NCBI GenBank assembly: GCA_023379385.1
Contig: JAMCUS010000004.1
Span: forward strand, 1-32,882
Reading direction: 5' to 3'
Source: Thermoplasmatota archaeon
Lineage (GTDB): Archaea; Thermoplasmatota; Thermoplasmata; Lutacidiplasmatales; JAMCUS01
Length of the DNA: 32,882 nt
Below are positions 15,179 through 25,301 of the stretch, piece by piece. Positions within the stretch are counted from its first letter, which is position 1. The number at the start of each line of letters is the position of its first letter. A model generated the notes under the pieces. That model saw nothing but the letters and a program-made list of their open reading frames with translations, searched no databases and was not told the origin of the DNA. Position numbers and translations under genes: made by a program.

Positions 15179-16246
15179 ATGATTAAAGATATTGATCGTT
15201 ACACATCGCATATAAACATTGAAGAAATTGGTATTGAAGGCCAAAAAAAAATAAAAAAGGGATCTGTAGTTATTATTGGAATTGGTGCCCTTGGGTCTGT
15301 AGCACTGCAGTATCTAACTGCAGCAGGCGTTGGGTCCATTGGAATAGTAGATGGTGATATTATTGAACTTTCTAATCTTACAAGACAGACAATTTATTCA
15401 GAAATGGATGTAGGCATGTCTAAGGTAGCTGTTTCCAAAAACAGGATGATGGCCCTCAACAATGATGTGAAAATTACACCGTACAATACATATATTGATC
15501 CTAAAAATGGTTATGACATCATAAAAAATTATGATATTATCATAGATGGCACTGATAATAGCAAATCCAAAAACATCATTAATAAATTATCTGTATCTCT
15601 GAGAAAACCATTAATTTTTGCCTCTGTAAATAATTTCAACGCAATGATATCAACATTCTGGCACGGACATGGACCATGTTATCATTGCATTTTTGGTGAA
15701 AAAAATCAGGATTATAAAGGATGTGATGAAGGGGTCCTTGCACCGTCTGCATCTATTGCTGGTTCGTTACAGGCACTAGAAGCCATAAAGATTATAACAG
15801 GTAGTAATAACTTATTGATAGGTAAGCTGCTGCTTTTTAATGGCACTAACTACCATATGAATATCATCAGTATCAGAAAAAATCCTGCATGTAATGTATG
15901 CAGCAAAAGTGGAAACAATAACATTTCAAAAATTGATTATGGTAACTATTTCATTACGTGCAAAATGTTATCAGAATGGAAAAAAATAGACAGTAATAAT
16001 ATAATAATATATGATGTCAGAGACAAATACTCTTATTCAATGTCGCATATAGAGAACGCTATCAATGTATCTGCAGAAGAGGTTATGTCTGGAAATGCTA
16101 TGGTTGATCGCAGTAAAAATGTGATCATATATTGTCATAACGGTATGAAAAGTGGTTTTATTGCATATCTTTTAAGAGAAAAGGGATATAGCAATGTATA
16201 TAGTCTTGAGAATGGATTCAAGGAATGGAAAAAGAGTGAATTATAA
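15179..16246 (+). CDS. E1-like ThiF/MoeB/UbaA protein with C-terminal rhodanese domain
   Basis: A 355-residue enzyme that should adenylate the C-terminal glycine of a ubiquitin-like sulfur carrier and help convert it to a thiocarboxylate. The E1 domain (about 1-245) shows the ATP loop 'VVIIGIGALGS' (30-40), 'DGTDN' (123-127), the catalytic-type C182 in 'GCDEGVLAPS', and zinc ligands C167/C170 and C238/C241. The rhodanese domain (about 258-355) has the persulfide Cys C319 in 'CHNGMKS'. The E1-rhodanese order matches eukaryotic MOCS3/Uba4. The stop shares one base with the start of TtuA (TAATG), so the two are translationally coupled. A TATA-like stretch at 15148-15154 fits a leaderless ATG at 15179. 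Molybdopterin or thiamine synthesis are alternatives, but the TtuA partner favours tRNA thiolation. Confidence 0.9.
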   Translation: MIKDIDRYTSHINIEEIGIEGQKKIKKGSVVIIGIGALGSVALQYLTAAGVGSIGIVDGDIIELSNLTRQTIYSEMDVGMSKVAVSKNRMMALNNDVKITPYNTYIDPKNGYDIIKNYDIIIDGTDNSKSKNIINKLSVSLRKPLIFASVNNFNAMISTFWHGHGPCYHCIFGEKNQDYKGCDEGVLAPSASIAGSLQALEAIKIITGSNNLLIGKLLLFNGTNYHMNIISIRKNPACNVCSKSGNNNISKIDYGNYFITCKMLSEWKKIDSNNIIIYDVRDKYSYSMSHIENAINVSAEEVMSGNAMVDRSKNVIIYCHNGMKSGFIAYLLREKGYSNVYSLENGFKEWKKSEL

Positions 16247-17220
16247 TGGATAAGCCTGCATGCAGTTTATGTAAAAGAGATTCTATCATATACATACGAT
16301 ACAGTGGAAGTAACTACTGTGAAATGCATTTTATCGATTTTATAAAAAAACGGGTTAGAGAAAACCTCAGAAATCAGGTGCTGTTTAAGAAAGGAGATAG
16401 AATTGCGGTAGCCGTTTCAGGTGGCAAGGATTCTATGGGTATGTTAAAACTTCTAAAAGAGGTAGTACCGCCCATACCTGATCTGAAACTTATTGCTATT
16501 ACCATTGATGAAGGAATTGCTGGTTATAGAGACATAACAGTACCAAAAGTCAAAAAATTTGCAGAAATGCTTAATATTGAACACAGGGTGATATCCTTTT
16601 CAGATATATATGGTATCACCATGGATGATACTGTAATTAAAAAAAAGGATTACACACCATGCACATATTGCGGTGTATGGAGACGAAAAGCTATGAATAT
16701 CATATCCAGAGAATTTGACGCAGATTACCTGGCAGTGGGCATGAATCTTGATGATATCTCCCAGAGTATTCTCATGAATTTTACAAAAGCAGATATTGCC
16801 CGTCTATCAAGGCTGGGACCGCACAACATAAGACAGGAAAATCTTATACCCAGATTATTGCCTTTAGTCACAATACCTGAAAAAGAGATGTATATGTACG
16901 CCTATATAACTGGAATAGAATTCCATAAATCATCATGTCCCTATTACAGCACGGCTATGAGAAATATATACAGAGAGGTAGTGAATAAATTGGAGGAAAG
17001 AATGCCCGGTACCAGGCACTCCATACTTCAGGCACATAGAACTATTTTACCTATGCTTCAGGAAAGATATCCAATGGAATCTATAAATACGTGCAAAATA
17101 TGTGGAGAACCATCTGTAAAAGAGATATGTAAATCATGCGAACTGTATATTGAATTGGAACAATCTTCATCAGTCGGTTCTGATGATTTACCTGGTAAAA
17201 GTAATGCAAAAGTTGATTAA
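16246..17220 (+). CDS. ttuA: tRNA 2-thiouridine synthetase TtuA/Ncs6 family
   Basis: A 324-residue ATP-pyrophosphatase that adenylates and thiolates a uridine of tRNA (U54 in thermophiles via TtuA, or U34 for the Ncs6/CTU1 relatives). The N-terminal zinc finger has C6, C9, C25 and H28. The PP-loop is 'AVSGGKDS' (56-63). The Fe-S cysteines are C139 and C142 ('PCTYC') and C231 ('SSCPYY'). A C-terminal zinc knuckle has C283, C286, C295 and C298. All functional Cys are present. It follows the E1-rhodanese gene with a one-base overlap, a natural pair because TtuA takes sulfur from a thiocarboxylated ubiquitin-like protein. No carrier gene with a Gly-Gly tail is visible in the window. Confidence 0.92.
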   Translation: MDKPACSLCKRDSIIYIRYSGSNYCEMHFIDFIKKRVRENLRNQVLFKKGDRIAVAVSGGKDSMGMLKLLKEVVPPIPDLKLIAITIDEGIAGYRDITVPKVKKFAEMLNIEHRVISFSDIYGITMDDTVIKKKDYTPCTYCGVWRRKAMNIISREFDADYLAVGMNLDDISQSILMNFTKADIARLSRLGPHNIRQENLIPRLLPLVTIPEKEMYMYAYITGIEFHKSSCPYYSTAMRNIYREVVNKLEERMPGTRHSILQAHRTILPMLQERYPMESINTCKICGEPSVKEICKSCELYIELEQSSSVGSDDLPGKSNAKVD

Positions 17221-17380: not shown

Positions 17381-17476
17381 GCCCGTGTGGGGTAGTTATA
17401 ACAGAAATGTTACTACAATGGATTATCCTAGAAGCCTGCGGAGCTTTAGACCCGGGTTCAAATCCCGGCACGGGCA
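17381..17476 (+). tRNA. tRNA-Arg (anticodon GCG) with 23-nt insertion in the D-loop
   Basis: Acceptor GCCCGTG (17381-17387) pairs perfectly with CACGGGC (17469-17475), with discriminator A 17476. The T-arm is CCGGG-TTCAAAT-CCCGG (17452-17468). The anticodon stem GAAGC/GCTTT encloses loop CTGCGGA (17436-17442), with anticodon GCG at 17438-17440 reading CGC/CGU. CCA is not encoded. The D-arm is canonical only if 23 bases (about 17397-17419) are removed: GGGTAGT then joins GGATTATCCT, restoring A14, G15, G18 and G19. The gene lies between ttuA and a convergent hydrolase. A TATA-like CTTATAAG is at 17361-17368. Confidence 0.88.
17397..17419 (+). other. Probable non-canonical tRNA intron in the D-loop
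   Basis: These 23 bases interrupt an otherwise normal tRNA between G15/U16 and G18. Exon bases GTAGT (17392-17396) can pair with ACTAC (17412-17416) inside the insertion, and AAC (17400-17402) with GTT (17409-17411) around loop AGAAAT, leaving a three-base bulge TAT. I could not fold a full bulge-helix-bulge with both cuts at the exon borders. It is either a relaxed-motif intron or an insertion that stays. Exact ends are uncertain by one base because of a T at both junctions. Confidence 0.5.
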
Positions 17477-22706: not shown

Positions 22707-25301
22707 ATGAGTGAAACCGTATCAGCAGGCGATGCACCATATGACAGATCTGCGTTGCATATAAACGGAAAAAAGGATCTGATAAATTTACTGACCAGTG
22801 AAAATGAATCATTACGATTAACAGGCTGGGAATCTGTGGTAGAGGATGATCTAACCGATATAATTTATTTAAACGATTTAACTGCCATTAAAAAATTTTA
22901 TTTATCTCTGCTCAAAAGTAACAGGCACGACACATTAATAAAAGCATGGAATTTAGCTGATGTATTAATTGATCAGGAAGTTATCCATATAAACGAACTG
23001 AATGAATATACGGAATCTTACAAAATTTTTATTGAAGATAATGATATGTCAGAGAGATTGCGGGCATGGGGTGATATCTCTGAATATACCATACAGATCA
23101 TGATGAAATTGAAAATTTTTACAGAACATAATAAAAATATTCTGTTTGATATGATCAAAAATGAGGATGAAAATACAAGGAACCGTGCCTTAACTTTTAT
23201 ATCGGGTTTTGTAAATGCAGGTTTTATTACATCTGAAGATAAATCTTTTTTTATCAACCTGCTCAGAAATAATAATTTATACATGAGAAATGAGGCGTGG
23301 CAATTGTTCTCTGAAAATGAATATTTTATTCCCCATCACATAATTGAAAAGAATGAACTGAAGGATAATCTGAATTTTTTCACAGATCTATTAAAGTCTG
23401 ATGACTTTAAACTGAGATCGGATTGCTGGGAATTCACCTTACAAAGTTTATTGGAAATTGAGCTATTAGGTAGTGCAGAACTTGAAGAAATCAAAAAATT
23501 AAAGGAATATTATCTATCCATCCTTGCATATAAAGAGAATTATGAGGTAGCAGCAGACGGATGGTCTGCACTGGAAGATTTACTTGTTTCTGATATTATA
23601 ACTGAAAGTGATACCGTCTATTTTATGGATCTGCTCAGGCATCCTGATGAAACCATACGGTCTTATGCATGGTCATCATTTTCAAATATGTTCTCATTTG
23701 GAATTATAAGAGATAATGATACTGGCTCCCTTTTACCCTTTTTTTACGAATTGCTTAAAACAGCTGATATGGACTTACGGTTAGAATGCTGGAACCTTTT
23801 ATTGAAAATTATTGAGATAGAAGATCTGTATATTGATGAGAATGAATACACGAAGTATATACCTGATTTTATTGAACTGCTTAAAATAGATAATCCAGTA
23901 AACAGAGCACTGGCATGGTTGTATCTAACTGTTCTCATAGATTATGAAATAATTGACACGACTGAAGCATTGCCATACATAGAGGACTTTCTGGTACTGC
24001 TTAAGGAGGGTGAAAAAAAGATACAGATACATGCATGGGAACTCGTGGGTGATCTTATTGATTGTGACCTTTTGAAAATCGAAAATGTTCAACCGTATAA
24101 AAAGTACGCCATAAACTTATTGAAAAATGATAAATCGTTTACGGATGGTGATTACACACTGTTCATAACTGCATGGCATGTGGCGAATGACCTGTTTGAT
24201 CTGAAAGTATTGACAAAAACAGATGTTATTTCAAATGTAAAATATTATATAGATATTCTGAAACATGATGATAACTACATAAGAAATATGGGGTGGATTA
24301 ATGTTATCGAACTTATGGATGGTAAAATAATAACACCTGATGATATAAAGCCTTATAATAATCAATACATACAGCTTTTAGAAAGTTATAGAAATGATTA
24401 TTCAGAGGATTATTCGCCATGGAAGCAGCTACCAGATCTTATAAAGTACGACATAATTACAAAAAAGGATAAGGAGCATTTTCTTGATATGCTTGTGGAT
24501 ATAAACCTGTATGTTATGCACAATGCATGGACCAATATTTTTACACTGCTAGATACCGGTATAATCACAAGGGTTGACAGACACTTTATCATTTCTCTAC
24601 TTAACAGTAAAAGAAATAGAGTAGCAATAAGGATATGGACCAATGTTATTGATCTCATCAAGTATAAAATAATCACAGGTGCGGAAAAGGAATACATCAT
24701 AGAACTGCTCAGATCAGAGGTAATGACTAACCGGTTATATGCATGGTTATACGCCAGCACATTTGTTTCCAGCAACATCATAAAGCAAAATGATCTGAAG
24801 CCACTAACAGGTCAACTGATAAGTGCATTAAAAATAGATAACCTGGCTATGCGAAAAATATTCTGGGATATATCCATCAAATACATGAATGAGAAGCTTG
24901 TTAAGAAAGAGGATCTGGTTGACAGGGTTGACTCTTACATTGACATATTGCAGGCGGATAATCTTAAGGTTCGATACATTGGATGGGCATATTTAAAAAC
25001 TTTAATCGCACATAATATAGTGGAAAAAGGAATCATTATTAAATACATTACCTATCTGAAGGATCTGCTTAAAAAAGAAAATTACGGTGTTATCATAAGA
25101 TACGATAACCCAAACATTGATAACGTAAATTTATGGGTAGGTTCGTGGAATATAGTGGAAAATTTCATCAAAAAACATTATCTGGATAACGAGGTTGCAT
25201 CCGATCTGCTGAATAAAAACCTCAATGAACTGAATAATGAGATGGATAAAGCAATGATAGAGGAGCTCAAGAAGATATCCGGGATCATGAATGGTAGCTG
25301 A
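22707..25301 (+). CDS. Large alpha-solenoid of about 20 Trp-containing HEAT-like repeats, function unknown
   Basis: An 864-residue acidic protein made almost wholly of repeats of 36-46 residues. Each unit has a helix ending in a 'LL+xD' pattern, a turn, then 'R-x-x-A/G-W' opening a second helix, a 'LI-x-x-x-I-I' stretch and an acidic 'xxxD/E' linker. Examples: 'LRHPDETIRSYAWSSFSNMF', 'LKIDNPVNRALAWLYLTVLI', 'LKHDDNYIRNMGWINVIELM'. I count about 20 units from residue 23 to 840, most with the Trp. There is no signal peptide, membrane helix or enzyme motif. The layout resembles HEAT/ARM scaffolds that bind proteins or nucleic acids, but I do not recognise the family. ATG 22707 has a Shine-Dalgarno, GAGGT, 8 bases upstream. 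The next gene converges and ends 18 bases downstream. Confidence 0.8.
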   Translation: MSETVSAGDAPYDRSALHINGKKDLINLLTSENESLRLTGWESVVEDDLTDIIYLNDLTAIKKFYLSLLKSNRHDTLIKAWNLADVLIDQEVIHINELNEYTESYKIFIEDNDMSERLRAWGDISEYTIQIMMKLKIFTEHNKNILFDMIKNEDENTRNRALTFISGFVNAGFITSEDKSFFINLLRNNNLYMRNEAWQLFSENEYFIPHHIIEKNELKDNLNFFTDLLKSDDFKLRSDCWEFTLQSLLEIELLGSAELEEIKKLKEYYLSILAYKENYEVAADGWSALEDLLVSDIITESDTVYFMDLLRHPDETIRSYAWSSFSNMFSFGIIRDNDTGSLLPFFYELLKTADMDLRLECWNLLLKIIEIEDLYIDENEYTKYIPDFIELLKIDNPVNRALAWLYLTVLIDYEIIDTTEALPYIEDFLVLLKEGEKKIQIHAWELVGDLIDCDLLKIENVQPYKKYAINLLKNDKSFTDGDYTLFITAWHVANDLFDLKVLTKTDVISNVKYYIDILKHDDNYIRNMGWINVIELMDGKIITPDDIKPYNNQYIQLLESYRNDYSEDYSPWKQLPDLIKYDIITKKDKEHFLDMLVDINLYVMHNAWTNIFTLLDTGIITRVDRHFIISLLNSKRNRVAIRIWTNVIDLIKYKIITGAEKEYIIELLRSEVMTNRLYAWLYASTFVSSNIIKQNDLKPLTGQLISALKIDNLAMRKIFWDISIKYMNEKLVKKEDLVDRVDSYIDILQADNLKVRYIGWAYLKTLIAHNIVEKGIIIKYITYLKDLLKKENYGVIIRYDNPNIDNVNLWVGSWNIVENFIKKHYLDNEVASDLLNKNLNELNNEMDKAMIEELKKISGIMNGS

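Follow-up and report, generated by a model that had tools for sequence, protein, structure and literature searches.

The window, the whole stretch of 32,882 nucleotides of DNA that was analysed, derives from an uncultured organism that its relatives place in the class Thermoplasmata and holds a tRNA-Arg(GCG) gene with an interrupted D-loop (Table 1). The gene starts 160 nt downstream of a TtuA-like gene, and a sulfatase-like gene on the opposite strand has its 3' end 45 nt past it; among genomes of f2, a family of the same order other than that of the window, we found no conserved neighbourhood around it. The acceptor (GCCCGTG/CACGGGC), the anticodon arm (GAAGC-CTGCGGA-GCTTT), the T-arm (CCGGG-TTCAAAT-CCCGG) and the discriminator A are present, and the acceptor, anticodon and T stems are all intact, in agreement with the initial annotation, which had called every arm but the D-arm perfect. 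The locus scored 25 bits against the Rfam tRNA model (cut-off 29) and ARAGORN made no call there, in both cases because some 20 nt interrupt the D-loop; as such genes escape both the Rfam cut-off and ARAGORN, the tRNA sets of genomes that carry them will look falsely incomplete. Full-length or partial matches to the gene occurred in 59 of the 61 genomes of the order, and CGU and CGC codons are in use in the window (27 of 9,642 codons).

Just upstream of the tRNA gene, in the stretch 15179-17220, the TtuA-like (tRNA thiolation) gene is overlapped by 1 base by a gene for a ThiF-like protein with a rhodanese-like C-terminal part. Further along, 22707-25301 encodes an 864-residue protein with many short α-helical repeats that look HEAT-like by eye.

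Table 1. Features of the interrupted tRNA-Arg(GCG) gene, in window coordinates, and loci of other introns in the same genome.
Feature	Position or locus	Strand	Basis
tRNA-Arg(GCG), 96 nt with intron and discriminator A	17381..17476	+	sequence; weak Rfam tRNA match
5' exon, 3' end GGGGTAGTT	17381..17397	+	junction set by uninterrupted D-arms GGGTAGTTTGGATTATCC (own tRNA-Arg(TCG)) and GGGGTAGTTTGGATATCC (f3)
Central helix, exon strand GTAG	17392..17395	+	pairs with CTAC/CTGC in 39/39 strict-pattern introns (CTRC fixed by the pattern)
5' bulge TT^A, predicted 5' splice site inside	17396..17398	+	[CT]T[AT] in 39/39 introns
D-loop intron, 21 nt, ATAACAGAAATGTTACTACAA	17398..17418	+	BHB/cloverleaf script; alignment with 19 relatives; sequence re-read
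Intron hairpin TAACA-GAAA-TGTTA, 5 bp	17399..17412	+	pairing in relatives compared with shuffles
Central helix, intron strand CTAC	17413..17416	+	script and relatives
3' bulge AA^T, predicted 3' splice site inside	17417..17419	+	A-N-T in relatives (A and T fixed by the pattern)
3' exon: D-arm remainder, anticodon arm, variable loop, T-arm, acceptor 3' strand	17419..17476	+	
Anticodon GCG	17438..17440	+	sequence; invariant across alignment with 19 relatives
D-loop introns in Arg(CCT), Arg(TCT), Thr(TGT), Thr(CGT), Lys(TTT)	L027, L178, L026, L009, L129		
T-loop introns (14 genes)	L162-L165, L167, L169, L171, L177, L178, L128, L129, L132, L023, L025		

Intron boundaries and splice motif

The boundaries were set with a script that looked for junction pairs with a 4-bp central helix and 3-nt bulges whose excision restores the cloverleaf. 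With the 21 nt excised, GTAGTT is followed directly by TGGATTATCC, the arrangement seen in the genome's own tRNA-Arg(TCG) and in the tRNA-Arg(GCG) of family f3. These boundaries place the intron in the D-loop between U17 and the base preceding G18-G19, not at position 37/38. The initial annotation, which had described an insert of 23 nt at about 17397-17419, was right as to its location and slightly off at both of its ends.

A strict bulge-helix-bulge (hBHBh') motif was rejected, as the outer exon-exon helix has 0 bp. The central helix has 4 bp and the inner helix 5 bp, and with the outer helix absent the motif is therefore a relaxed hBH. That no motif could be folded here, as was noted initially, thus holds for the strict form; the relaxed form does fold, and it is conserved in 55 genomes. 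When the 21 intron letters were permuted with the junctions held fixed, 77 of 2,000,000 shuffles reached a 4-bp central helix together with an inner helix of at least 4 bp. In thermodynamic folding of the window sequence, a competing fold came out 1.8 kcal/mol better than the motif fold (–36.8 versus –35.0 kcal/mol), and the probability of the central helix was about 0.3, with values from 0.01 to 0.96 among relatives. These folding energies do not prove the hBH motif.

Conservation of the intron and uninterrupted alleles

Two sets of comparisons bear on whether the insert is an intron. First, among the f2 genomes whose gene was read, 55 carry an insert at the same place and 0 lack it. The exons are nearly frozen across this family, the intron letters are free to vary, and intron length ranges from 21 to 35 nt. 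The helix beside the 5' bulge is nonetheless retained: in 39 distinct introns it averages 5.2 consecutive pairs, compared with 0.75 after shuffling (the highest mean in 2,000 shuffles was 1.44) and with no more than about 1 when the frame was shifted along the sequence, and its third pair is G-C, A-U, G-U or C-G depending on the genome, as expected of compensatory changes. The strict pattern that collected these 39 introns itself demanded CTRC and ANT, so the set is biased for both. Listed without that requirement and read by eye, nearly all f2 introns still end in CTRC, the exceptions being three with CTAT, where a G-U pair closes the helix, and one with CTAA, which makes one mismatch.

Second, uninterrupted counterparts have the sequence that splicing would produce. 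The D-arm of tRNA-Arg(TCG) in the same genome (locus L025), GGGTAGTTTGGATTATCCT, is uninterrupted and equals the predicted spliced product in every letter. The tRNA-Arg(GCG) genes of two f3 genomes from the same order (L260 and L264) read GGGGTAGTTTGGATATCC and lack the D-loop intron, but carry an anticodon-loop intron instead, so that one gene is interrupted at different sites in sister families: the D-loop in f1 and f2, the anticodon loop in f3. These three families form a natural comparison set. In 19 further families of the class, the D-loop of tRNA-Arg(GCG) is normal and uninterrupted (for example GTAGCTTGGATATCC), which brings to 20 the other Thermoplasmata families without the insert. 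Together with the conservation in f2, these empty alleles bear out the D-loop intron that had been proposed for the locus from its sequence.

They also make two other accounts of the locus unlikely, since the insert is conserved in f2, D-arms are empty elsewhere and the D-arm of tRNA-Arg(TCG) in the same genome is identical to the spliced form. According to one, which the initial annotation had left standing, the insert is retained and the mature tRNA-Arg(GCG) has a giant D-loop that contains a stem. The insert does form a stable hairpin on its own, the minimum-free-energy structure lengthens the D-stem around it, and relaxed motifs lie outside the expected range of the known endonuclease subtype. 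Nevertheless, insert-free relatives show exactly the spliced D-arm; the CTRC at the 3' end of the intron is maintained and can pair with exon GTAG, a match for which a passively extended D-loop would have no use; the introns differ in length; and the many T-loop inserts of the same genome, described below, could stay in no ordinary tRNA. We consider retention very improbable. According to the other, the interrupted copy arose by misassembly or has decayed to a pseudogene, and tRNA-Arg(GCG) comes from a different gene. A second, intact copy had been named at the outset as one observation that would speak against an intron here, and one could be missing from an assembly of 45 contigs that is 93.8% complete. 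No other Arg(GCG) copy was found in that assembly, however, every stem of the interrupted gene is intact, and the same interrupted gene, usually the sole copy found, recurs in the 55 f2 genomes, which leaves this account with next to no probability.

Introns in other tRNA genes of the genome

The intron of tRNA-Arg(GCG) is no isolated case: introns in the D-loop and the T-loop are numerous in this genome. We located tRNA genes by their T-arms, searched next for interrupted T-arms and read the matches individually. This yielded about 37 introns among about 42 tRNA genes (approximately 0.9 per gene). The D-loop accounts for 8 of the introns, the anticodon loop for 15 and the T-loop for 14; they are spread over about 24 genes, some 11 of which hold at least two. 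The T-arm searches did not recover about five of the tRNAs that would be expected (Gln TTG, His GTG, Thr GGT, Val TAC and Pro GGG). D-loop introns occur in the genes for Arg (GCG, CCT, TCT and CCG), Thr (TGT and CGT), Lys (TTT) and Leu (TAA), with ambiguous boundaries in the case of Arg(CCT). By the script, Leu(TAA) (L165) has three introns, one each in the D-loop, anticodon loop and T-loop; Arg(CCG) (L169), read by eye, probably has the same three, its D-loop and anticodon parts being tentative, as is the anticodon part of Asn.

Most T-loop introns span 13-14 nt, and many of their host genes additionally hold a D-loop or anticodon-loop intron. Their central helix is formed by exon TTCA and intron TGAA, and the T-stem takes the place of the outer helix, giving GGG-TTCA-AA^A...TGAA-AA^T-CCC. 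Confirmation by the script was obtained for 12 of the 14; those of Gln(CTG) and Ser(TGA) were recognized by eye. Within the genome this pattern matched 13 places, 12 of them in the tRNA genes counted above, and a reversed control gave 0. The pattern is usable for this genome only: a class-wide count of T-loop introns was dropped because coding sequence in GC-rich genomes yields many chance matches. Separately, the tRNA-Ala(CGC) genes of f3 (L270 and L271) have a T-loop intron with a hairpin, and similar motif matches in f9 and f17 suggest that T-loop introns may be spread more widely in Thermoplasmata.

The splicing endonuclease

One EndA gene was detected in the genome (contig 19, about 103.5-104.6 kb, minus strand), a single frame of 364 codons with two PF01974 matches. 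The encoded protein of 363 residues is longer than its counterparts in Archaeoglobus (305), Thermoplasma (289) and Ferroplasma (288), and its nearest named relatives, EndAs of Thermoplasmata MAGs, are about 42% identical. The catalytic Tyr, His and Lys are invariant and belong to the second unit. Ahead of the LxLSLxE helix in this catalytic unit, where Crenarchaeota have the CSL, the protein (YGKVMNEYLVLSLLE) aligns gaplessly with that of M. jannaschii (YGNVEGNFLSLSLVE). An extra loop of the crenarchaeal CSL or ARMAN ASL type, to which relaxed specificity has been linked, is absent there; in the chimera 3p1y, which bears a CSL, this position holds 10 additional residues. Among 80 related Thermoplasmata EndAs sampled, the loop is short as well, as far as the pattern reads. 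An AlphaFold2 model of the protein (mean pLDDT 89) matched 5x89 and Archaeoglobus 2gjw in a fold search (TM-scores by target of 0.90 and 0.87), ahead of Thermoplasma 2ohc (0.78) and ARMAN-2 4fz2/9w2k (0.58-0.60). On the strength of these modelled fold matches, to 5x89 and 2gjw over ARMAN-2, and of the lack of an extra loop in the sequence, the enzyme is classified as α'-like, a fused two-unit protein with a catalytic second unit, and as neither ε2 nor CSL-bearing. The two-domain endonuclease that the initial annotation had expected is thus what typing of endA returned, as a single fused α'-type enzyme.

Two further lines were set aside. An insertion in the first unit, PRGGxxxKTPxxxW, was rejected as a marker that might stand in for a CSL or ASL because it is found across the sampled Thermoplasmata EndAs, including those of Methanomassiliicoccales. 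The EndA tree was dropped as an arbiter of intron gain versus loss because the branch of this enzyme (L032 925-2016) is very long and the forks are weak. At 1.98 changes per site it is the longest branch among 38 Thermoplasmata EndAs, a length that may stem from base composition or from a changed constraint.

Proposed splicing route

We conclude that the 21 nt at 17398-17418 are very probably a genuine intron in a functional tRNA-Arg(GCG) gene, cut out by the α'-type EndA and followed by joining of the exons. The gene, its conservation, the empty alleles, the motif and the enzyme type are established, and the cutting, the joining and the specificity of the enzyme are inferred. In the precursor, exon G12-U13-A14-G15 would pair with the CUAC at the 3' end of the intron to form the 4-bp central helix. 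On one side of this helix the 5' bulge UU^A would adjoin the hairpin of the intron; on the other, the 3' bulge AA^U would open into a loop (bulge-helix-loop). The fused two-unit EndA, acting as a dimer, would cut each bulge behind its second base, and the exon halves would be joined, presumably by RtcB. G12 and U13 would thereby be released to form a normal D-stem. Two observations speak against this route. The competing window fold is slightly preferred thermodynamically, and published descriptions confine α'2 enzymes to strict motifs, with the EndA of this genome lacking a CSL- or ASL-type loop.

In published classifications, α'2 enzymes are rated as narrow and restricted to strict motifs (PMC6379350, PMC12397907), Euryarchaeota with α4 or α'2 enzymes have single canonical introns, and relaxed, non-canonical or multiple tRNA introns are tied to (αβ)2 or ε2 endonucleases (PMC4090602). 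Removal of the intron with the help of a second endonuclease subunit or an accessory factor that escaped detection and relaxes specificity would fit the link of relaxed motifs to (αβ)2 or ε2 enzymes (PMC6379350), and the one EndA gene is what can be seen in a genome that is only 93.8% covered. Yet a PF01974 gene is present in all but one of the 61 genomes of the order and no genome has more than two domain matches, both of which, among the matches listed, lie within one open frame. Moreover, the α'2 EndA of Archaeoglobus can cleave a bulge-helix-loop in full-length pre-tRNA at 37/38 (PMC6379350), so the mismatch between enzyme and substrate may be one of degree. We regard such a helper as unlikely, if somewhat less so than retention of the insert. 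For cleavage by the α'-type EndA itself, the broader proposition is that this Thermoplasmata lineage combines a non-canonical intron load of crenarchaeal scale with one α'-type EndA devoid of a CSL or ASL, its specificity having been gained by a new route or the loop not being required; we hold the chances of this to be about even. If it is true, the view that the intron repertoire follows from the type of enzyme would be incomplete, and the lineage is an apparent counterexample to that view as given in reviews (PMC4090602).

Comparison with known systems

Non-canonical tRNA introns are known from Crenarchaeota, Thaumarchaeota, Nanoarchaeota, ARMAN, a few Euryarchaeota and some Asgard archaea (PMC4033280, PMC8450103, PMC11291895). 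A search confined to the open-access literature returned no report of such introns for Thermoplasmata. The kind of intron is already known; what is new, as far as we searched, is its occurrence in this lineage, the number of introns carried and their combination with an α'-type enzyme.

Thermoproteales and other Crenarchaeota likewise have short introns in the D-arm, the anticodon arm and the T-arm, with as many as three in one gene and with cleavage at motifs of the BHB, hBH or HBh' type (PMC4090602, PMC4033280), and the load in Thermoproteales, 0.84 introns per gene (PMC8450103), is close to the value of about 0.9 here; the crenarchaeal enzyme, by contrast, is of the (αβ)2 type, whereas this member of Thermoplasmata has a single fused α'-type EndA with no CSL. 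ARMAN-1 and ARMAN-2, whose enzyme is ε2, resemble the present case in combining multiple relaxed-motif introns with a non-crenarchaeal, acidophilic host (PMC4033280), but the EndA described here has neither the αN/α/βC order nor the ASL of the ε2 enzyme. The α'2 enzymes of Archaeoglobus and Thermoplasma share with it two units in one chain, a catalytic second unit and the absence of CSL and ASL; they differ in being rated as narrow (PMC6379350), whereas here the putative substrates are relaxed D-loop motifs and the chain is longer. Finally, Atabeyarchaeia and Freyarchaeia, Asgard archaea and thus of a different phylum, have introns in a large proportion of their tRNA genes, often at non-canonical positions and over half of them with several (PMC11291895), a likeness drawn from the introns.
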